From contig NZ_PVWF01000013.1 of the NCBI RefSeq assembly GCF_003003995.1, positions 1 through 61,143 of the forward strand: a stretch of 61,143 nt of DNA. The letters run 5' to 3'. This document shows positions 31,207-53,745 of the stretch, piece after piece. The stretch comes from Pleurocapsa sp. CCALA 161. GTDB lineage: Bacteria > Cyanobacteriota > Cyanobacteriia > Cyanobacteriales > Xenococcaceae. The translations under genes and the position numbers were made by a program. The notes below the pieces were generated by a model. That model ran no database searches. It was not told the DNA's origin and saw nothing but the letters and a program-made list of their open reading frames with translations. Each line of letters starts with the position of its first letter. Position 1 is the first letter of the stretch.

Positions 31207-31616
31207 TTTTGGTAGTTTAAAAGGCGTAAGGATAAAAGAAGAACTAGATTAGTAGTGTTAATTAAGTTTTGTTTTTCTTGGTTGATTACTATCTTCATGC
31301 TCTGTTATTGAACCTGTCTAAAATAGGTAATTTGTAAAGTTATGAATCACAAGTAAGAGCATCTGTAATTACACACTGGACAGTCAATTGGCAAACTGTT
31401 AGTTTTGAGCGGGTATTTGGGAACTCTTAAAAATAAGGCTAAGGAAGTTCTCGTATTTCAGAATTAATTAACCCTTGGTTGCGGTGCTTACCAAAGTAAG
31501 GCCGCTTTTGGGTAAGATGATTATTACCCAAAACGCACCGTAAAGTAGTTGAAATCAGCTACCAGCCTGAAAACACAACTTCTTTCATAAGTTAACTTAT
31601 ATTGAATTTACATAAA
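31207..31616. other. leader / intergenic region before the acidic repeat protein
   Basis: 410 bases with no credible gene. The 3' part carries the branched inverted repeat at 31482-31540, which ends 76 bases before the ATG of the acidic repeat protein. It could be an RNA element in that gene's 5' leader or the end of the decayed upstream locus. Confidence 0.5.
31482..31540. repeat. branched inverted-repeat element 2 upstream of acidic repeat protein
   Basis: The outer stem CGGTGC/GCACCG (31482-31487, 31535-31540) encloses two hairpins: CTTAC-CAAA-GTAAG (31487-31500) and the perfect 10-base TTTTGGGTAA/TTACCCAAAA (31506-31515, 31524-31533). The result is a near-ideal three-way junction in about 59 bases. 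Its sequence is unrelated to element 1. Confidence 0.65.
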
Positions 31617-34118
31617 ATGAAATCAGCCAAAATTGTTAATAAAATTCTGCTAATTTCTCTTGCTTTTGGTAGCGTAACCGTCGTTGCTGGAATCTTGTTA
31701 GCAAAGGAAAATAAAAAAGCCCTGATCGGCTTAGGTGCGACTGCTTCTGTAGCCAGTATTGCTGGAATGTTAGCAACTAGCAGCCAAAAGAAATTTAATG
31801 AGAATCAAGAAGAAAAACAATCGGATAATCGAGTAACAGAACTCAATAGTCAAGAAAGCATACTAGGTCAATCTGTTGCTAACGAAATCGAAGAAACACA
31901 GATCCCAGAGGCTAGTGTTAGTTCATTTCCCGTCGAACAAAATCAGCTATGGGATGAGCCTGTTAGCGATCTAATGAATGAGCAACTTGAGACAAAACAT
32001 GAACTTGAGCAGCAAAATAGTTTTGCTTTAGAAGATCATGGACAAGATTTAGAAACAAAAAATAATTATTCAAACTCAAAATTAGAAAATTTCTCGGTTG
32101 AAAACGAAGTATTAGAACAAGTTATTTCTCCTATTGAAGAACAATCTTTTCAGGAAACTTCATTAGAGTCAGATATATTTAACAATGAATTAGTGACTGC
32201 TCAAAATTCTATAGAAGAGGAAATTGAAGACATTACAGGAAATACATCAGCAAATCTTAATCCTTTCGCTAATTCAGCAGATTTAACTGAATCCAGTCAA
32301 AGCGAAGAAGTTGCTGATCTGGAAATAGTAAATAAATTAATTGGAACATTCGAGCCAACTGAAATAGATACGAGTGAAGACTTTACTAATGAAGACTCTG
32401 ATGAGCTATTCATGGAAGAATCTGATTTAGAAGAAGCAGAATTTAGTTCAGAATTTAGTTCAGAATTTAGTTTCGACGATGAATCGCCCATGAGTTCAGA
32501 GTCTGAGGACATGGACTTTGAGGCAATGCCCATGGCTGATGCTGAGTCTATCGAAGAGTTAGCTACAGAAGATGAATCTCCTGCCGAATTTAGTTTTGAT
32601 GACTCTCCAGCGATCGCCATAGAAGCAGAATTTAGTTCAGAATTTAGTTTCGACGATGAATCGCCCATGAGTTCAGAGTCTGAGGACATGGACTTTGAAG
32701 CAATGCCCATGGCTGATGCTGAGTCTATCGAAGAGTTAGCTACAGAAGATGAATCTCCTGCCGAATTTAGTTTTGATGACTCTCCAGCGATCGCCATAGA
32801 AGCAGAATTTAGTTCAGAATTTAGTTTCGACGATGAATCGCCCATGAGTTTAGAGTCTGAGGACATGGACTTTGAAGCAATGCCCATGGCTGATGCTGAG
32901 TCTATCGAAGAGTTAGCTACAGAAGATGAATCTCCTGCCGAATTTAGTTTTGATGACTCTCCAGCGATCGCCATAGAAGCAGAATTTAGTTCAGAATTTA
33001 GTTTCGACGATGAATCGCCCATGAGTTCAGAGTCTGAGGACATGGACTTTGAAGCAATGCCCATGGCTGACGCTGAGTCTGATGAGTCCATCGAAGAGTT
33101 GGTCACAGAAGATGAATCTCCTGCCGAATTTAGTTTTGATGACTCTCCAGCGATCGCTACAGAAGCAGAATTTAGTTTCGACGATGAATCGCCCATGAGT
33201 TCAGAGTCTGAGGATATGGACTTTGAGGCGATGCCTGTTGCTGATGCTGATTTTGATGATTTGATGGGCGAGTTGGTAGTGGATGATCAATTCTCTTCAG
33301 AATTTAATTTTGATGATCAATCGGACGATCAATCCGCGATCGCTACTGAATTAGAATCTAATGAACAAGAACCAATGGAAGATGAGCAATCTTCTATGGA
33401 ATTTAGCTTCGACGACGAATCAAATATGAGTTCAGAGTCTAATAATATAGACTTTGAAGCAATGTTAATGGTTGATGATGAGTCTACTGAGTCTTCCGTG
33501 GAATTTAGCTTTGAAGATTCATCGGCGATCGCTTCTAACGCTGAAGAATTTATGGGTCAGTTTGTTGACGAAGACGATTCTTCTGAGGAAATAAATCTGG
33601 ATAATATTTCAGAGATGAATTCAGAATCAGATGAATTTAGTTTGAATCTTTCAGATGGTTCAGAAGCATTAAATGCAGAAGTTTTAAACACTTCTGAACC
33701 AAATGAGTTTATGCAAGAATTAGTTGATGATCATGAATTAGCATTAAATAAATTGACTTTTGAGTCAGAACAGGATTTAGCGATCTCTGAAGAGTCTGAC
33801 TCTGATGAATTTATGGCTGCTTTTAACAATGCAGATGAATCCTTCCAAGAGTTAAGCTTTGAAGAAGCTTCTACTGAAGAGTCTGACTTTGATGAACTTA
33901 TGGGAGCATTTTCTGATGAGAGTCAATCCTCAACTGATCAACTAAATAATGCTGATTCAGATGTATTTGATGTTATTAATGCTATTGACAAAAAGCTAGA
34001 CGAGTTAACCGAAATTTCTGACGATTCTTTAGGAGAATTAAATGATTTATTAGGTTCAATTCAAGATAATTTTTCTCAGAAAGAGGAAGAGCTGAAGGAA
34101 ATTAATCGAGACAAATAA
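31617..34118 (+). CDS. membrane-anchored, highly acidic protein with 59-residue tandem repeats
   Basis: About 833 residues from the ATG at 31617 (a TTG at 31602 is in frame). Two hydrophobic segments at about 9-29 and 34-55 anchor it. Everything after is Glu/Asp/Ser-rich and probably disordered. Residues about 280-540 hold four to five copies of a 59-residue unit (EFSFDDESPMSSESEDMDFE, then AMPMADAESIEELATEDESP). The C-terminal ~45 residues (AIDKKLDELTEISDDSLGEL and on) look like a coiled coil. The extreme charge suggests cation binding, an entropic brush or a scaffold. I recognise no family. The terminator at 34172 ends the transcript. Confidence 0.8.
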   Translation: MKSAKIVNKILLISLAFGSVTVVAGILLAKENKKALIGLGATASVASIAGMLATSSQKKFNENQEEKQSDNRVTELNSQESILGQSVANEIEETQIPEASVSSFPVEQNQLWDEPVSDLMNEQLETKHELEQQNSFALEDHGQDLETKNNYSNSKLENFSVENEVLEQVISPIEEQSFQETSLESDIFNNELVTAQNSIEEEIEDITGNTSANLNPFANSADLTESSQSEEVADLEIVNKLIGTFEPTEIDTSEDFTNEDSDELFMEESDLEEAEFSSEFSSEFSFDDESPMSSESEDMDFEAMPMADAESIEELATEDESPAEFSFDDSPAIAIEAEFSSEFSFDDESPMSSESEDMDFEAMPMADAESIEELATEDESPAEFSFDDSPAIAIEAEFSSEFSFDDESPMSLESEDMDFEAMPMADAESIEELATEDESPAEFSFDDSPAIAIEAEFSSEFSFDDESPMSSESEDMDFEAMPMADAESDESIEELVTEDESPAEFSFDDSPAIATEAEFSFDDESPMSSESEDMDFEAMPVADADFDDLMGELVVDDQFSSEFNFDDQSDDQSAIATELESNEQEPMEDEQSSMEFSFDDESNMSSESNNIDFEAMLMVDDESTESSVEFSFEDSSAIASNAEEFMGQFVDEDDSSEEINLDNISEMNSESDEFSLNLSDGSEALNAEVLNTSEPNEFMQELVDDHELALNKLTFESEQDLAISEESDSDEFMAAFNNADESFQELSFEEASTEESDFDELMGAFSDESQSSTDQLNNADSDVFDVINAIDKKLDELTEISDDSLGELNDLLGSIQDNFSQKEEELKEINRDK
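32449..33230 (+). repeat. 177-bp coding tandem repeat
   Basis: Units begin at 32461, 32638, 32815 and 32992 with exactly 177-base spacing (59 codons), and a shorter fifth begins at 33166. Copies 1-3 differ by only one or two bases from each other. Copy 4 has a 9-base insertion (DES) and lacks a 12-base sub-repeat. The 12-base GAATTTAGTTCA sub-repeat is itself multiplied at the 5' edge. Each full unit carries a GCGATCGC octamer. Confidence 0.95.
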
Positions 34119-46556: not shown

Positions 46557-47402
46557 ATGAATTCTCCCTCAATGACCCAGCAGTCTGTTTTAGATGCCTT
46601 AAAGCGTTTGATTGAAGTAGTTGCTCAACTGAGATCCCCAAATGGGGGATGTCCTTGGGACTTGGCACAAACACCTCAGACTTTAATTCCCTACGTGATT
46701 GAAGAGGCTTACGAGGTGGTAGACGCGCTGCAAGCAGGAAACCAACAAGCGATCGCCGAAGAGTTAGGGGATTTATTGCTACAGGTGGTGTTGCAGACTC
46801 AAATCGCTAGTGAACATCAAAATTTTACTTTGGAGGATGTTGCTCAAGGTATTACGGCTAAGTTGATTCGTCGTCATCCCCATGTCTTTGGCGATGTACA
46901 GGTTAACAGTGCTGCCGAAGTTAATCAAAATTGGGAAGAGATTAAAGCAGCCGAAAAAGGGGAAAGTCCTGAACAAGCAAACTTACTTAGTCGGAAACTC
47001 GATCGCTATGCTCGTAGTCTTCCTCCCTTAACGGCAGGTATGAAAATATCAATTAAGGCAGCAGCAGCAGGTTTTGAATGGTCAGATATTGACGGAGTTT
47101 GGAGCAAATTTACTGAAGAGTTGGGAGAGTTCCAAGAGGCTCTAACGACCAACGATAAAACTCATCAACAGGAAGAATTAGGCGATTTACTCTTCACGAT
47201 TATTAATCTTGCTCGTTGGTACGATTTAGACCCTTTTGCTGCTTTACAGGGAACAAACCGCCGTTTTATTCAACGCCTAGAGCTGATGGAAAAGTTCGCC
47301 CCTCGTCCTTTAACAGAATATGATTTAGAAAAATTAGAATCTTTGTGGCAACAAGCCAAGACACAGTTAAAACATGGCACACAAGAACAGAATTTAACAT
47401 GA
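46557..47402 (+). CDS. mazG: nucleoside triphosphate pyrophosphohydrolase
   Basis: A 281-residue MazG protein that hydrolyses NTPs to NMP and pyrophosphate, clearing non-canonical nucleotides or reducing (p)ppGpp precursors. It has two MazG repeats: the first with GGCPWDLAQTPQTL, EEAYEVVDAL and EELGDLLLQV (about residues 30-75), the second with EELGEFQEAL and EELGDLLFTI (about 187-215). Length and the doubled acidic EExxE/ExxD motif fit the E. coli type. Its stop codon overlaps the next gene's ATG by four bases (ATGA). Confidence 0.95.
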   Translation: MNSPSMTQQSVLDALKRLIEVVAQLRSPNGGCPWDLAQTPQTLIPYVIEEAYEVVDALQAGNQQAIAEELGDLLLQVVLQTQIASEHQNFTLEDVAQGITAKLIRRHPHVFGDVQVNSAAEVNQNWEEIKAAEKGESPEQANLLSRKLDRYARSLPPLTAGMKISIKAAAAGFEWSDIDGVWSKFTEELGEFQEALTTNDKTHQQEELGDLLFTIINLARWYDLDPFAALQGTNRRFIQRLELMEKFAPRPLTEYDLEKLESLWQQAKTQLKHGTQEQNLT

Positions 47403-48568
47403 CCACATACGACTGGATAGTAATTGGGGCAGGAATAACTGGTGCTAGTCTCGCCTATGAATTGAGTCGACAAAACCTGACAGTCTTGCTGTTAGAAAAA
47501 GATCCCCAGCCAGATAATGCCACTCTATATAGTTACGGCGGTTTAGCCTATTGGTCAGGCACGGACGAACTTACTTGTACTCTTGCTCAAGAAGGTATTG
47601 AACTACATCGCGATTTAAGTGTCGAACTAGATGCAGATACGGAATTTAGGGAATTGGATTTAGTTTTAACTATTGATCGCCAAGATGATCCTGAAGCCAT
47701 AGCGCAGAATTATGAGCGCTTTGCGATTACTCCAGAATTACTTAACGTCCAGGATGCTTGTACTCTAGAGCCATTGCTGAATCCTAATGCCATTTCAGGA
47801 GTTCTTAAGCTACCTCATGCTCATATCCAGGCACAAAAGACCACTAATGCCTACATTCAAGCCATGATTCGTCATAGAGGAAAGGTGATCTATGAGCAGG
47901 TGGTAGGGCTGGTGCGCCAAGGCAATAGAATTACTGGCGTTACTACCAAGACAAATATTTATTCTGGGAATAATACTATTGTTTGTGCGGGAGGATTATC
48001 GCAATCGCTATTGCAGCAAGCAGGGATTAAAGTAAATAATTATTTTACTCACGCGCAGCTAATTATGACTCCTCCCGTAGATTTGGAGTTGGCTACCGTA
48101 GTGATGCCTGCCGTTCAGCAGAGATTTAGGCTAGAAGCTCAACCAGCTGCTATAGATCCTGGACATCAATCAACCAGGGTAATCTTAGACCCTGGAGCAG
48201 TTCAGTTTATGGATGGTAGTCTTTGTCTGGGTCAAATTAGCTCCATCACCGAAAACCCCCAGGCTAAATTTGATTTAGCGATCGCTGAAGCTCAAATTCG
48301 CCAACAGGTAGGTAATGTCTTACCTTTACTAGAAGATCTTCCAGGTACTTGTCATAGTTGTTTGGTAGCGTTTAATAATCAAGGAATTGCTTTGGTCGGA
48401 AATTTAGCCGACATTTCAGGACTGTATCTGTTTTCTGGCTTTACTAATACCTTGGTCTATGCGCCTGTTGTGGCTAGACGTTTTGCCCAAGCTCAAACAG
48501 GAGCAGCAGATCAAATTATCGAGCAGCTACAGCTAACTGTAAATAAAGTTGCTTCGCTTCAGCTATAA
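47399..48568 (+). CDS. FAD-dependent oxidoreductase, DAO (glycine/D-amino-acid oxidase-like) family
   Basis: A 389-residue FAD enzyme. The ATG at 47399 is chosen because the first residues after it are the FAD-binding fold (TTYDWIVIGAGITGASLAYELS) and it overlaps the mazG stop as ATGA, indicating translational coupling. A longer frame starts earlier, inside mazG. The family includes glycine oxidase, sarcosine oxidase and ThiO. The C-terminal LYLFSGFTNTLVYAP is the second FAD-contact region. Substrate not assigned. The cell may use it to oxidise amines. Confidence 0.88.
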   Translation: MTTYDWIVIGAGITGASLAYELSRQNLTVLLLEKDPQPDNATLYSYGGLAYWSGTDELTCTLAQEGIELHRDLSVELDADTEFRELDLVLTIDRQDDPEAIAQNYERFAITPELLNVQDACTLEPLLNPNAISGVLKLPHAHIQAQKTTNAYIQAMIRHRGKVIYEQVVGLVRQGNRITGVTTKTNIYSGNNTIVCAGGLSQSLLQQAGIKVNNYFTHAQLIMTPPVDLELATVVMPAVQQRFRLEAQPAAIDPGHQSTRVILDPGAVQFMDGSLCLGQISSITENPQAKFDLAIAEAQIRQQVGNVLPLLEDLPGTCHSCLVAFNNQGIALVGNLADISGLYLFSGFTNTLVYAPVVARRFAQAQTGAADQIIEQLQLTVNKVASLQL

Positions 48569-48616
48569 GCTTTTCCTTGATGGCACAGATCAAGAGAGGC
48601 TAGGTACGAGACTAAA

Positions 48617-49483
48617 TTAATGTTGTAAGTGTTGTAGCCAGCTTCTCGTTCCAAATGATAGACAAGAGCGACTAGCAATCTTTGCTGCCCGCTTTAAAGC
48701 AGTAGTAAAATTATCCTGCAAAATATAATGACAAAATGCACCATGAAAAATATCCCCTGCGCCTAAAGTATCCACAGGCTTGATTGCAGGGACAGGGATA
48801 GTAGAGTTGCGGTCTTGCTCTCGATATCTAATTGCTTGCTCTCCTTGAGTGATGGCAATGTATTTTATGCCACAATCTTGTAAAAAATCAAACACATCTT
48901 CTCTCTGCTGACATGGTGGGGGGTAAAAGTTGGCTGAACAAATAGCGTAGTCTACCCAGAAAAGCAATTCCTCTAGTCCTGGTTTCCAGCTACCACCATC
49001 AAGAATAACAGGAATTTGTCTGGTTTTAGCGATCGCCGCAACTTTCAAACTAACCTCTAGCTGATGTCCATCAAGTAAAACCAGATCGATATTAGTCAGC
49101 AAATCTGGTGCAACTATTTCAGGGTTAGCCTGAGACTTTACTGCATTGAGGGAAATAATTGAACGCTCTCCCGTAGCTGCGGTGACAATAATCGAGGACA
49201 CAGGAGGAGTATCGCTCTTGTCTGGTATTAAATCTACTGTGGCAACACCCTGCTGTGCTAGATCGCTTTTGATTAATTCAGTTAACGGATGTTTTCCTAG
49301 TACAGAAAGTAATTTAGCTTGATTGCCAAAATAGTTAAAAGTAACAGCAGCATTAGTTGCGGGTCCTCCTGCTACCGTAAGATATTCCTGCGCCACTAGT
49401 TTTTGATTTGCTTGCACAGGGCGATCGCTTAAGTAAATAAAATCTAAGGTGGTTAAACCTACAAATAGCCCTCGATATGTCAT
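48617..49483 (-). CDS. PfkB-family carbohydrate/nucleoside kinase
   Basis: A 288-residue ribokinase-like enzyme. It has the first PfkB signature (AGGPATNAAVTFNYFGNQAKLLS) near residues 38-60 and the second, PVDTLGAGDIFHGAF, near 234-248 with the catalytic Asp in GAGD. It phosphorylates a sugar or nucleoside; ribokinase, 2-keto-3-deoxygluconate kinase and fructokinase are in range and cannot be separated here. It converges with the FAD oxidase gene. A 15-base tandem repeat lies in its upstream region. Confidence 0.9.
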   Translation of the reverse strand: MTYRGLFVGLTTLDFIYLSDRPVQANQKLVAQEYLTVAGGPATNAAVTFNYFGNQAKLLSVLGKHPLTELIKSDLAQQGVATVDLIPDKSDTPPVSSIIVTAATGERSIISLNAVKSQANPEIVAPDLLTNIDLVLLDGHQLEVSLKVAAIAKTRQIPVILDGGSWKPGLEELLFWVDYAICSANFYPPPCQQREDVFDFLQDCGIKYIAITQGEQAIRYREQDRNSTIPVPAIKPVDTLGAGDIFHGAFCHYILQDNFTTALKRAAKIASRSCLSFGTRSWLQHLQH

Positions 49484-49511
49484 GAGGCAGTTTTGAAATT
49501 AAGATACCGAT

Positions 49512-49541
49512 ATTTAACCTGTAAATATTTAACCTGCAAAT
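49512..49541. repeat. 15-base tandem repeat upstream of the PfkB gene
   Basis: ATTTAACCTGTAAAT is followed directly by ATTTAACCTGCAAAT (one mismatch), about 30 bases upstream of the PfkB start on the minus strand. It could be a paired binding site or a slippage duplication. Confidence 0.55.
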
Positions 49542-49618
49542 TTGTCAATTTAGTCAGGCAACAAACTTTATTTTACAGCGATCGCCCATTTTAGTGAGCA
49601 TTGAGGTTTTATCGCTGC

Positions 49619-50350
49619 TTAGACAATATCAAACTGCTCACCTGTAACCACATCAGCACTGCTACCGCTAGCAATATCAACATCGTTTAAAGTCACTTGT
49701 TGACCAAAAATATCTGTTACCACCAAATCTTGTGCTTCTGATATAGCAGAGCCAGTATTCAAGACAAAACGATTATCCGACCCTCGTTCCAAAGGAACTA
49801 GACTACCATCCTCTTCCAGTAAATCGACGCTTTCGACTGGATTGCGATGATTATTAAGTCTAATAGCTCCATAATAGGGATTAGATTCGGGGATGCCCTC
49901 AACTACAATACCTTGACCAATACTGTTACCATAAGGAGTCACAAAATTGTCATCGGGACTAATTAATTTATATTCTATATCTACTACCCCGTCTACAGGA
50001 TCGGCAACTTCAAAAAATGCTTCTGCACTAAGGTCTAAGCCATCAGCGCGTTCATATAACAGATCTGAAACTTGAACTATAATAGGTGCAGCGCCATCTG
50101 TTTGTTTAGGACCTGACACCTCCAAAAAAGCTCCACTAGCTTCAGATGCATTCCACTGAACATTATTAATGGCGGTAATACCGGCTAATGCGTCTCCAGA
50201 AAGAACGTCATAACCAGAGTTACCTTTTCCTCCCGCAGGATTAGCTGCATCGTAGAAAGTTGCTCTACCCTGATAGGTCTGACCTGATTCTAGCTCTGGA
50301 CTGATATTAACGTCGATTGGTTGTTGGACGTTGGGTACTACTGCTTGCAT
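49619..50350 (-). CDS. expansin-like protein (two-domain, EXLX type)
   Basis: A 243-residue protein matching the bacterial expansin plan, as I recall it from Bacillus EXLX1. Domain 1 has a GRATFYD start (T31), ITAINNVQWN, SGAFLEVSGPK, VQVSDLLYERADGLDLSAEAF with D96 and D106 at the positions of the functional Asp71 and Asp82. Domain 2 has YYGAIRLNNHRNPVESV with Y159-Y160 where EXLX1 has a Trp pair. The third binding aromatic (Y157) is not visible. Expansins loosen cellulose non-hydrolytically. There is no Sec signal; the FDIV end could be a type I secretion signal, inference only. Confidence 0.85.
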   Translation of the reverse strand: MQAVVPNVQQPIDVNISPELESGQTYQGRATFYDAANPAGGKGNSGYDVLSGDALAGITAINNVQWNASEASGAFLEVSGPKQTDGAAPIIVQVSDLLYERADGLDLSAEAFFEVADPVDGVVDIEYKLISPDDNFVTPYGNSIGQGIVVEGIPESNPYYGAIRLNNHRNPVESVDLLEEDGSLVPLERGSDNRFVLNTGSAISEAQDLVVTDIFGQQVTLNDVDIASGSSADVVTGEQFDIV

Positions 50351-50540
50351 GTCTTTAAATTCTCATAATGAGGTGTAACGATCCATGCCTAAATACCTAA
50401 GAAACTGCCAAGTAACCTTAAGTTGTTTTTTGTGAATCGTTAACCAGTTTATATTTACCAATAGTTCTGGACGTTACCAAAATGATGTAAATTTTTGGTC
50501 AAGACATTTAGATAAAATATTTAATATTAGCGATTGAGTC

Positions 50541-50562
50541 CTAGTAAATTACTAGTTTTTTT
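50541..50562 (+). terminator. plus-oriented terminator-like hairpin
   Basis: CTAGTA-AAT-TACTAG followed by seven T on the plus strand. It faces the opposite way from both flanking genes, directly next to the minus-strand terminator of the phosphohexomutase gene. It may stop antisense transcription from the expansin side. Confidence 0.5.
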
Positions 50563-50566
50563 AAGT

Positions 50567-50602
50567 AAAAAAAGCAAGGGTACTCGTGCTGAGATCCTTG
50601 CT
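50567..50602 (-). terminator. terminator of the phosphohexomutase gene
   Basis: On the minus strand AGCAAGG/CCTTGCT with a 16-base loop is followed by TTTTTTT, 77 bases after the gene stop. It separates the phosphohexomutase from the expansin-like gene, so the latter has its own promoter. Confidence 0.8.
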
Positions 50603-50678
50603 AACGAAGATTTATCACCAAGTTTATAGCTTAGAGCTAGGGCGAAGCTCCTTTGTCGATCGCTTTCTCCTCAAGTAG

Positions 50679-52118
50679 TTATGAATTTGCCCAATCTCTT
50701 GCCCATTCAAGCACTTTTTGCACTTCTGACATAGTAGTAGCCTGACAATAAAGACGTAATACAGGTTCAGTGCCACTAAAGCGAATTAACAACCAAGTGT
50801 TATCATCCATTCTGAATTTGTAACCATCAACGTCAAGACAATCTACGACGGACATTCCAGCAACTTCTTGAGGAGTTTCTTGTTGCAAACGTGCTAATAA
50901 CTTGGCGCGAACTTCCATGTTTGCTAAGGGGAGATCGATGCGATCGTAATGCGCAGTAAAATCGGTCTTTTGCTGTAATCGCCTATAGATTGCGCCCAGC
51001 TCTTCTCCCGACTCAACTACTGCTTCTAGGACGTACAAAGCCGATAAGAGGGCATCACGTTCGGGTATATGGGTGCCATAACCGATACCTCCTGATTCTT
51101 CTCCACCAATCATTACTTCTGCCTGAAGCATCCTATCGCCAATATATTTATAACCAATTGGCGTTTCATATACCGATCGCTCATAGCATTTAGCTAAGCG
51201 AGGAATCAGATCCGAACCACTAACAGTTTTAACAATCTCTCCAGTAAAACCTTTGCGTTCTGCCAAATGCTCAATCAAAATCGGAATTAATACCTGCGAA
51301 CTGAGAAAATTTCCTGCTGCATCAGCCCCTGCAATGCGATCGCTATCGCCATCAAATACTAACCCTACCCGCAGACTATGAGGGTAATCTTTAGCCCCTG
51401 CTTTAATTGCTTTGAAAAAATCAGGTAGATATTTCGGTAGAGGTTCAGGTGCGCCACCGCCAAATAAAGGATCGCGATCGCTATTTATTTCTGATACAGG
51501 ACACCCTAATAGACGTTCCATTCCCGAAGCTGCTGCACCGTGCATTACATCCACATAGACCTTCAGTTTCTCGGCAACAATAGCGCTTTTAATTGCTGCA
51601 ATATCAACTTTTTGCTGCAACCCCTGACAATAACTTGCCCACGGATCAAACATCTCTAGCTTACCTGGCTTTTCGGCGGGAGGTAAAGACTGACCAAGTT
51701 TAGCCTCGATTTGTTCGGTAATTTCTGGTGGCACAGATCCACCAAAAGCACTTTTAACTTTTAATCCCAAATATGTAGCAGGATTATGAGATGCCGTCAT
51801 CACAATTGCACCCAGAGCATGATGAGCTTTCGCTGCCCAACTAAAGGCAGGAGTGGGGGCAAAACACTCAGACAATAAAACATCAAATCCCGCTTCTTGT
51901 ATTACTGTTGCGGTTAACTTAGCAAAATCTTCTGCCATAAAGCGGCGATCGTAACCTACAATCACAGTACGATTATTAGCAATATCTCCGTAGTTATCTG
52001 CCAAAACTTGAGCTGCCAGTGGTGCTAGCATAGCAACACGTTCAAAAGTAAAGTCAGCCGCAATCACTCCACGCCAACCATCCGTACCAAACTTGATGGG
52101 ATTAACAGTAAAAGCCAT
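50679..52118 (-). CDS. phosphoglucomutase/phosphomannomutase family protein
   Basis: A 479-residue alpha-D-phosphohexomutase that interconverts hexose 1- and 6-phosphates, feeding nucleotide-sugar or glycogen metabolism. It has the active-site Ser loop TASHNPATYLG near residue 105, the metal loop DGDSDR near 260, the sugar-specificity loop GEESGGIG near 335 and the phosphate loop RFSGTEPVLRLY near 455. Pgm, ManB and GlmM are hard to separate by eye. Its first domain (KFGTDGWRGVIAADF) is typical of cyanobacterial members annotated as phosphoglucomutase. Confidence 0.92.
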   Translation of the reverse strand: MAFTVNPIKFGTDGWRGVIAADFTFERVAMLAPLAAQVLADNYGDIANNRTVIVGYDRRFMAEDFAKLTATVIQEAGFDVLLSECFAPTPAFSWAAKAHHALGAIVMTASHNPATYLGLKVKSAFGGSVPPEITEQIEAKLGQSLPPAEKPGKLEMFDPWASYCQGLQQKVDIAAIKSAIVAEKLKVYVDVMHGAAASGMERLLGCPVSEINSDRDPLFGGGAPEPLPKYLPDFFKAIKAGAKDYPHSLRVGLVFDGDSDRIAGADAAGNFLSSQVLIPILIEHLAERKGFTGEIVKTVSGSDLIPRLAKCYERSVYETPIGYKYIGDRMLQAEVMIGGEESGGIGYGTHIPERDALLSALYVLEAVVESGEELGAIYRRLQQKTDFTAHYDRIDLPLANMEVRAKLLARLQQETPQEVAGMSVVDCLDVDGYKFRMDDNTWLLIRFSGTEPVLRLYCQATTMSEVQKVLEWARDWANS

Positions 52119-52323
52119 AAAACTAAAAATTTAGTAACTTTAGAAATAACACCTTCCAGATTAACTGTTTCTACGGGGTTTGAAAACTACAAAGTTACAC
52201 TCGTTTGGCGATCGCAATTAGTTATAATTATTACTGCAAGTTTTGTCCAAAATTCATCTGCTTGATTAAGCTATGGATTGAATACTTGACGGTTGATGGT
52301 CTAGATTTAACTAAAGGTATGCT

Positions 52324-52659
52324 TTAAACTTCTTCCGATTCAAGCCGTTGTTCAACATTTTCTTCGCTCAACTCTAAATTTTTTAATAAATCTATTAATC
52401 TCATACGCTCAATATAGGGCCAACCACCTTTTTCCTCTATATCTTTAACAAACTGATATAAATCATGGCGCGTTTGTGGTAATGCTGATTCAAAATAATT
52501 AATTCTAATTTGACGATGAATCTGTTCCAAATCTCGTAACAATGATAGTAAGAAAAGACTGTCGTTTTGGTTTTCTTTTGCCAAGGCACAAAGATCTTGA
52601 GCTGTGTCCGTTAATAAGCTGATTGAATCGATTGCGTTGATGTCTTGATCTTGAGTCAT
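52324..52659 (-). CDS. small helical hypothetical protein
   Basis: About 111 residues, starting at the ATG at 52659 (a TTG nine bases upstream extends it); GGGG lies just before. It is acidic, all-helical, with Leu-rich heptad-like stretches (SLFLLSLLRDLEQIHRQIR, RMRLIDLLKNLEL). No signal peptide or membrane helix. It is convergent with nothing nearby and divergent from psbO. I recognise no family; a protein-protein interaction role is a guess only. Confidence 0.6.
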   Translation of the reverse strand: MTQDQDINAIDSISLLTDTAQDLCALAKENQNDSLFLLSLLRDLEQIHRQIRINYFESALPQTRHDLYQFVKDIEEKGGWPYIERMRLIDLLKNLELSEENVEQRLESEEV

Positions 52660-52917
52660 GTACCCCAAATGAGCTTAAAAATGAACTTTGTCTACTTTAT
52701 ACAAGATGTACACTAATCTTAAACTGATTACAGAACAGTTGTTAACAAATTAGATAGCTTGTTGAATAGAATATTTTTGGGCGATCGGCTTATTATGTAG
52801 TCCTTCTTTGGTAGAGTAGATAGCATCTATAAAAATGGCTAATTTCATATGAACAGCCTATTTGCAGCATCTTTCGCTCTCGATGTTAAATTTAAAATTG
52901 ACAAAATGAAGTTGATT

Positions 52918-53745
52918 ATGAGAAACCGTTCAATTATTGCTTGTTTCCTAGCATTATGTTTAGGAGTACTAACCGCCTGTAGTAATTCTAGTGATGTCAG
53001 CAGAAATGAGCTGACCTATGACGATATTGTCAATACTGGAATTGCCAACACTTGCTTAGAATTACCCGATAGTAGTCGTGGCACTATTGCTATTGAATCA
53101 GGTAAAAAATATGCTATCCGCGATTTGTGTATAGAACCTAGAGAATATTTCGTTAAAGAAGAACCCGTTAGCAAACGTCAAAAAGCTGAATACATCCAAG
53201 GTAAGTTATTGACTAGGTATACTTCTAGTCTCGACCAGATTCAAGGAACTATTGACAGTAATGCTGATGGAACTTTAACCTTTACTGAAATTGATGGGAT
53301 TGATTTTCAACCTGCTACTGTTTTGTTACCTGGTGGAAAAGAAGTTCCCTTCATGTTTACGATCAAGCAATTCCAAGGAACTACTACAGCAAGTGCAGAC
53401 AGCATTAATACCTCAACTGACTTTGAAGGTGAATTTAACGTTCCTTCCTATCGCGGACAAGTTTTCCTCGATCCCAAAGGACGTAGCCTCGCTAGTGGTT
53501 ACGACAATGCTGTAGCGTTGCCTGGACTAGCAGATGACCAAAGATTTTCTAATGCCAACGTTAAAGAATTTGTTTCCCGCAAAGGCAAAATGTCGCTTAA
53601 CGTCACTAAAATTGATGGTGACACAGGAGAAATTGCTGGGGTATTTGAAAGTGAACAGCCTTCTGCCACTGACTTAGGCGCCGAAGAACCAGAAGAAGTT
53701 AAAGTTCGTGGTATTTTCTACGGCAGAGTTGTCTCAAACGCCTAA
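52918..53745 (+). CDS. psbO: photosystem II manganese-stabilizing protein (33 kDa)
   Basis: An extrinsic lumenal subunit that stabilises the Mn4CaO5 cluster of oxygen evolution. The likely start is the ATG at 52918, giving 275 residues as in other cyanobacteria; in-frame ATGs at 52906 and 52849 would lengthen the signal. The N-terminus is a lipoprotein-type signal ending LTAC at Cys21. The mature domain has TYDDIVNTGIANTC, the second Cys in RDLCIEP and REYFVKEE, and GRGIFYGR-like end (VRGIFYGRVV). A strong terminator follows. Confidence 0.96.
   Translation: MRNRSIIACFLALCLGVLTACSNSSDVSRNELTYDDIVNTGIANTCLELPDSSRGTIAIESGKKYAIRDLCIEPREYFVKEEPVSKRQKAEYIQGKLLTRYTSSLDQIQGTIDSNADGTLTFTEIDGIDFQPATVLLPGGKEVPFMFTIKQFQGTTTASADSINTSTDFEGEFNVPSYRGQVFLDPKGRSLASGYDNAVALPGLADDQRFSNANVKEFVSRKGKMSLNVTKIDGDTGEIAGVFESEQPSATDLGAEEPEEVKVRGIFYGRVVSNA

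Follow-up and report, generated by a model that had tools for sequence, protein, structure and literature searches.

A divergent predicted bacterial expansin of Pleurocapsales-type cyanobacteria

Background

What would an expansin do in a photosynthetic bacterium? This question is raised by a 243-residue reading frame from the cyanobacterium Pleurocapsa sp. CCALA 161, located in a stretch of 61,143 nucleotides (contig NZ_PVWF01000013.1, positions 1 to 61,143; hereafter the window), in which the original prediction had recognised the plan of a two-domain bacterial expansin. The window also holds genes that we take, from their sequence, to be psaA and psaB. At positions 31602-34118 of its plus strand lies an 838-aa acidic protein rich in Ser, Glu and Asp, whose N terminus looks hydrophobic by eye and which contains a tandem repeat of 177 bases (59 residues) in 4.5 copies with 93% matches. 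According to the figure legend of a 2024 survey, more than 97% of its microbial expansin sequences belong to bacterial plant pathogens and less than 3% to eukaryotes, and section 5 of that survey names no cyanobacteria (PMC11040781).

Results

Gene, domains and family assignment

The gene and its parts, with domain edges that are approximate, are as follows:

49619..50350, minus strand: expansin gene, 243 aa, ATG to TAA (NF041144, PDB matches, dN/dS)
50297..50350, minus strand: residues 1-18, a short N-terminal extension at the place where longer relatives carry CBM2, with no hydrophobic signal (hydropathy, alignment)
49976..50296, minus strand: domain 1 (D1), double-psi barrel (DPBB), about residues 19-125 (NF041144; DPBB_1 at 16 bits, sub-cut-off; Foldseek; poorly modelled)
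49622..49975, minus strand: domain 2 (D2), CBM63-type beta-sandwich, about residues 126-243 (NF041144; PDB profile search; pLDDT 60-85)

The protein scored 110.4 bits with the NCBIfam model NF041144 (expansin_EXLX1; curated cut-off 100 bits), covering model positions 1-191 of 194. Used as a single query against PDB chains, it matched 9ms5 (1.7e-16), 9ms4 (1.2e-10) and 2bh0 (YoaJ; 2.1e-9) over both domains in phmmer, and a profile made from seven sequences reached 2.9e-42, 1e-28 and 7.1e-28, with 9ms5 best. By these matches, which lie far above chance, the protein is classed as a genuine two-domain bacterial expansin. The plan read from the letters by the original prediction, whose three quoted motifs were all located in the 243-aa frame, is thus borne out, and the profile match to expansins by which it could be checked is significant. 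Pfam alone would miss the assignment, because its sole match is DPBB_1 at 16 bits, under the 28.8 cut-off of that model. The protein is strongly acidic (38 Asp and Glu vs 9 Lys and Arg) and has no Cys.

Structure prediction was in line with this assignment in part. A first AlphaFold2 model, built on an alignment of seven sequences, had a mean pLDDT of 57.8, with D2 mostly at 60-85 and D1 mostly below 50; a second, from a trimmed six-sequence alignment, fell to 49.7. Searched with the first model, Foldseek returned 11 matches at E<=0.001, all of them to bacterial, fungal or plant expansins or to group-1 pollen allergen, at a best TM-score of 0.56 (query length) and an rmsd of 6.9-9.0 A. This ranking agrees with the sequence result and weakly supports the predicted barrel-plus-sandwich fold, and the low confidence of both models tells against taking the fold itself as settled.

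The gene is under purifying selection, as dN/dS (NG86) among it and its orthologues in genome G466 and in Hyellaceae cyanobacterium CSU_1_1 was 0.081, 0.088 and 0.122 for the three pairs. A 95%-identical relative was found in a Hyellaceae cyanobacterium, and gene order is the same in the window and in G466: sugar kinase, expansin and phosphohexomutase on a single strand. In the window, the gene is flanked by a sugar kinase of the ribokinase-like type and by a phosphohexomutase-like protein, each scoring below its equivalog cut-off.

Key residues and the aromatic platform

Residues were compared across 23 aligned rows, comprising 18 of the cyanobacterial clade described below together with G452, a Myxococcales row, 9ms5, 9ms4 and 2bh0. 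EXLX1 numbering was taken from PMC11040781 and from a count along the YoaJ letters. The positions concerned are:

50063..50065, minus strand: Asp96, equivalent to EXLX1 Asp71 (Asp in 23 of 23 rows)
50033..50035, minus strand: Asp106, equivalent to EXLX1 Asp82 (Asp in 23 of 23 rows)
49886..49909, minus strand: insert IVVEGIPE, residues 148-155, directly preceding the aromatic pair (18 of 18 cyanobacterial rows)
49871..49876, minus strand: Tyr159-Tyr160 at the positions of EXLX1 Trp125-Trp126 (PDB match and alignment)
49775..49777, minus strand: Asp192 at the position of EXLX1 Tyr157, the third aromatic being lost (PDB match and alignment)

The claims made beforehand about these positions, namely that both functional Asp residues are kept, that the Trp pair has become Tyr-Tyr and that a third aromatic is missing, all agree with the alignment. 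Like EXLX1/YoaJ of Bacillus subtilis (2bh0, 3d30), the window protein thus has the two-domain plan, Asp71, Asp82 and the D2 core motifs; unlike it, the window protein has Leu for Tyr73, Gly for Lys119 and Tyr-Tyr-Asp for Trp-Trp-Tyr, along with an 8-residue D2 insert and no signal peptide that we could find. Five characterised microbial expansins are said in PMC11040781 to retain D71, Y73, D82, K119, W125, W126 and Y157; of these seven residues the window protein keeps the two Asp only.

These changes are shared unevenly among relatives. In the Tyr73 column the window protein has Leu98, with Tyr99 adjoining, and each of the 18 cyanobacterial rows has either Leu or Met; of the other five rows, 9ms5, G452 and the Myxococcales row show Cys, and Tyr stands in 9ms4 and 2bh0 only. 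Tyr73 of D1 has been called essential in BsEXLX1 (PMC11040781); since three of the other expansins have Cys there, it is no family-wide requirement. The Lys119 column is Gly in all 18 cyanobacterial rows and Lys in the remaining five, and the D2 insert is found in none of G452, the Myxococcales row and the three PDB expansins. The platform itself is intermediate in G789 (Trp-Trp-His) and G488 (Tyr-Trp-His), both of which branch outside the other cyanobacterial rows. In the remaining 16, Asp takes the third position after a pair that is Tyr-Tyr, Trp-Tyr or Asn-Tyr. Streptomyces Ss_EXLX1 (9ms5), the best PDB match, resembles the window protein in its C-terminal Gln-Phe and in its non-Tyr residue at position 73; unlike the window protein, it keeps Trp-Trp, the third-position Tyr and Lys119, and it has no D2 insert. 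As the platform is a feature of function and not of fold, its loss weakens the case for cellulose binding of the EXLX1 kind but not the case for homology.

Distribution and phylogeny

Expansin occurs in 13 of 27 searched genomes of the window's family, and in 13 of the 22 more complete ones. Across the order, 388 genomes were sampled and 16 matched: the 13 of the family, two of family f11 and G014, the last by a weak match to domain 1 only. A single-sequence search of 243 genomes gave 10 matches, and a class-wide sample gave three in 388 (the window's own genome, G789 of family f26, and G014); within f26, 2 of 63 genomes matched, one of them over positions 143-229 only. Scanning of genome contigs found six related loci, two each in Hyellaceae cyanobacterium CSU_1_1 and Waterburya agarophytonicola and one each in Xenococcus sp. 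and a Myxococcales MAG. A wide cyanobacterial occurrence was considered and set aside: at E<=0.001, NF041144 has matches in 37 of 386 genomes, of which the own genome alone passes the cut-off, and the other matches among those listed all fall within model positions 1-108 (domain 1). Judged from these searches, the window expansin is a member of a divergent cyanobacterial clade that is seldom met outside its family.

On a tree of the 23 rows, the 18 cyanobacterial ones form one clade (100/100) on a long stem of 1.93 changes per column. Within it the trio containing the window copy is joined at 97/94 and the 16 pleurocapsalean rows at 99/96, with the CBM2-bearing G789 and G488 outside these 16. 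No gene donor was found on this tree, the clade being united with G452 at 92/83 only, a grouping that is not starred. A recent foreign origin was rejected, as the gene has a GC content of 0.42 vs 0.39 for the window and a GC3 of 0.26, inside the 0.25-0.41 range of eight neighbours; composition thus carries no sign of recent transfer, and an older transfer would be compatible with these data. A phage origin was likewise dismissed, since none of the 77 pattern matches from one search of viral contigs was a relative.

Several further loci were noted in passing. Short fragments of an expansin C terminus, perhaps decayed extra copies, lie at L086 (G406:C1:4743291-4743437) and L051 (G488:C290:8612-8716). 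A second, more canonical cyanobacterial expansin sits within a 1294-aa CBM2/Calx-beta/GH9 protein of another family (L069:5169-9053, G452), and a 1301-aa frame at G813:C57:236849-237463 also matches.

CBM2 and GH9 partners

The genome of the window encodes a second expansin on contig C24, which is 65% identical and carries two CBM2 modules. Pfam was run on ten of the longer cyanobacterial expansin frames and detected CBM_2 in nine (L002, L003, L004, L008, L042, L046, L047, L089 and L091); the tenth, L005, is a GH9 fusion whose linker resembles the end of a CBM2 by eye, and six longer frames outside the scan (L041, L043, L044, L045, L049 and L090) have the same look by eye. Besides L005, GH9 shares the expansin frame in L047/L069 (CBM2, Calx-beta, expansin, Calx-beta, GH9) and in L089 (GH9, CBM2, expansin).

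When L005 is scored as lacking CBM2 and the six unscanned frames as having it by eye, absence of the module takes two changes on the 23-row tree. Because CBM2-bearing G789 and G488 branch outside, and because a tree with the window trio outside all other clade rows is 8.29 log units worse (p-AU 0.029, for a group picked after the tree had been seen), the window copy most likely descended from a CBM2-bearing form and lost the module. Gene truncation is an unlikely artefact here, because G466 and CSU_1_1/G553 have the CBM-free form too and because tblastn with two CBM2 regions detected no remnant of the module at 47000-53000 of the window.

In all, the own genome has two GH9 matches and four CBM2 matches, two of the latter in the second expansin copy. 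A CBM2-GH9 cellulase with no visible signal may be split across two of its contig ends (C180:1-603 and C147:7-462); a whole relative of 820 aa with three CBM_2 stretches is present in G466 (L099:3273-5732). A right-handed beta-helix protein on C128 (L055:442-1887; L096:2912-4378), with no signal from its assumed Met, has a marginal CBM2-like start that reached 25.1 bits (cut-off 24) in one search and gave no CBM_2 at E<=0.01 in another.

Cellulose synthase and GH9 across the family

The own genome encodes a BcsA-like synthase with PilZ, at 436 bits vs an equivalog cut-off of 699. TIGR03030 matched at E<=0.001 in all 27 family genomes, none of them over the cut-off, and in 11 of 14 control genomes. 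BcsA-like matches above 430 bits occur in 24 of the 27 (13/13 expansin carriers and 11/14 non-carriers, G554 having split matches only), and GH9 in 23 of the 27 (13/13 and 10/14). Co-occurrence was therefore set aside as weak evidence of function: both kinds of gene are frequent with or without expansin, so it discriminates little. At the locus, flanked by the two sugar-related genes named above, there is no linkage to cellulose synthesis.

Export

Hydropathy agrees with the earlier remark that no Sec signal is visible: the N terminus of the window protein has no hydrophobic stretch, and no upstream room is left for one, because the frame is closed by a stop five codons upstream of the Met, with four sense codons between. 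To compare relatives, the 45 residues that begin with the first Met were searched for the highest mean hydropathy over 10 residues, values below 1.0 counting as absence of a signal-like stretch. Of 19 distinct cyanobacterial expansin frames, 18 have no such stretch by this measure, those with CBM2 or GH9 included; the exception, L005 (2.22, starting at residue 29), has it within a nucleoside-hydrolase domain. The values for four controls whose signals are visible were 2.4-3.2. When starts upstream of the first Met were allowed, L041 (1.65), L090 (1.72), L003 (1.34) and L091 (1.20) rose, all staying below the controls, and a weak signal from a non-ATG start is conceivable in these four; the start of L046 is uncertain. 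Two more own-genome proteins with a CBM2 match show no signal from their assumed Met, and the own-genome GH9 on C119 has a visible one. That 18 of 19 frames share the lack suggests an unrecognised export route, and not a loss peculiar to the window copy. A Sec signal is usual in bacterial expansins, but its absence alone is not new, since expansin homologues without a predicted signal peptide are mentioned in PMC7729394.

The further proposal that the C-terminal FDIV is a type I secretion signal was not supported. The motif overlaps the conserved end of expansins, Gln-Phe being present in 21 of 21 rows that reach so far (of 23), including the Myxococcales row, Streptomyces and G452, with the last three residues of the window protein as an extra; FDIV thus gives no evidence for type I secretion. 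RTX repeats were not seen by eye across the 243 aa, and a type I signal of a non-RTX kind would be compatible with this.

Discussion

We put at about even the chance that the window protein is a cyanobacterial expansin which, exported without Sec, loosens extracellular beta-1,4-glucan non-hydrolytically. The proposal is made because Asp106 is kept and because a cellulose-binding module serves as a tether in most relatives. The protein would leave the cell by a non-Sec route and loosen the glucan without cutting it; D1 would act through Asp106, and D2 would bind more weakly than, or differently from, that of EXLX1, since the flat Trp-Trp-Tyr platform is now Tyr-Tyr-Asp with an insert alongside. 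The CBM2-bearing copy might stay on crystalline cellulose, and the CBM-free window copy might be a mobile form on less crystalline glucan, easing access for GH9 cellulase. As substrate we would favour a cellulose-like matrix of the own cell or of the biofilm. Counted against the proposal are the loss of five of seven EXLX1 residues, the unrecognised export signal and a locus without linkage to cellulose synthesis.

The same modules would also suit an accessory to attack on foreign cellulose, in which a cyanobacterium living on algae, plant litter or mats would turn CBM2-expansin and GH9 on the walls of its host or of detritus, a reading we hold to be possible if somewhat unlikely. The GH9-expansin fusions look degradative, the genome also has a GH9 with a visible signal, plant pathogens dominate the sequences counted in the survey legend cited above (PMC11040781), and a symbiosis with a seaweed is described for the carrier Waterburya, in a paper that lists endoglucanase and beta-glucosidase (PMC8580901). 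That carrier also makes the free-living habit assumed in the original prediction less than certain. Yet the host is a phototroph, neither flanking gene is for sugar uptake, and GH9 reaches well beyond expansin in the family (23/27 vs 13/27 genomes). It is doubtful, in turn, that loosening has been lost and the scaffold re-used to hold another polysaccharide, as a glycan-binding or matrix protein whose new site is formed by the altered platform together with the 8-residue insert. The loss of Tyr73, Lys119 and the platform, the clade-specific insert that adjoins it, the strongly acidic composition and the long stem of the clade would all fit such re-use; but both Asp residues needed for EXLX1 loosening persist in every aligned row, the CBM2 partners of most relatives point to cellulose, and position 73 has Cys, not Tyr, in 9ms5, the Myxococcales row and G452 as well.

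That the protein stays inside as a cytoplasmic relic, or as an intracellular protein with a new role, seems to us very unlikely: the lack of a Sec signal and of upstream room for one, and the probable loss of CBM2, would be expected of it, but the gene is kept by purifying selection and nearly all cyanobacterial expansin frames are equally devoid of a signal. Returning to loosening of extracellular glucan, a bolder form, which we think unlikely, would be an endogenous wall loosening evolved by phototrophs, in which expansins with a rebuilt D2, exported without Sec in CBM2-anchored and CBM-free forms, remodel the own cellulose-like envelope at growth or daughter-cell release, as plant expansins do on plant walls.

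CelA of Clavibacter michiganensis, also among the closest known systems, combines GH5, CBM2 and a C-terminal expansin according to PMC7729394 and PMC5072189; its order of cellulase, CBM2 and expansin recurs in cyanobacterial G789. In contrast to CelA with its GH5, the cyanobacterial fusions use GH9 and have no visible Sec signal, most of the longer frames are CBM2-expansin alone, and the window copy has neither extra module. Our literature search returned no paper joining expansin with Pleurocapsa and, among the matches listed, no cyanobacterial expansin described in titles or abstract openings; the word "cyanobacteria" occurs only in the reference list in the passages shown of PMC7729394, and "expansin" only in the title of a cited 2020 survey in those of PMC10673042. 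Since NF041144 scores the protein over its cut-off, the label "expansin" is probably already attached to it in databases; within the literature searched, the clade, its GH9 fusions and its changed platform seem undescribed.

Taken as a whole, the protein is best described from its sequence as a divergent bacterial expansin of Pleurocapsales-type cyanobacteria. Its clade offers natural variants in which both Asp residues are kept and the aromatic platform is lost stepwise, and which would directly test the need for the platform. If export without Sec is true, it would point to an unrecognised cyanobacterial secretion route for cellulose-active proteins. Furthermore, the conservation of this clade in cyanobacteria and its association with CBM2 and GH9 imply that a phototroph producing a cellulose-like matrix may make use of expansin action, and suggest that loosening of the wall type may also operate in photosynthetic bacteria.
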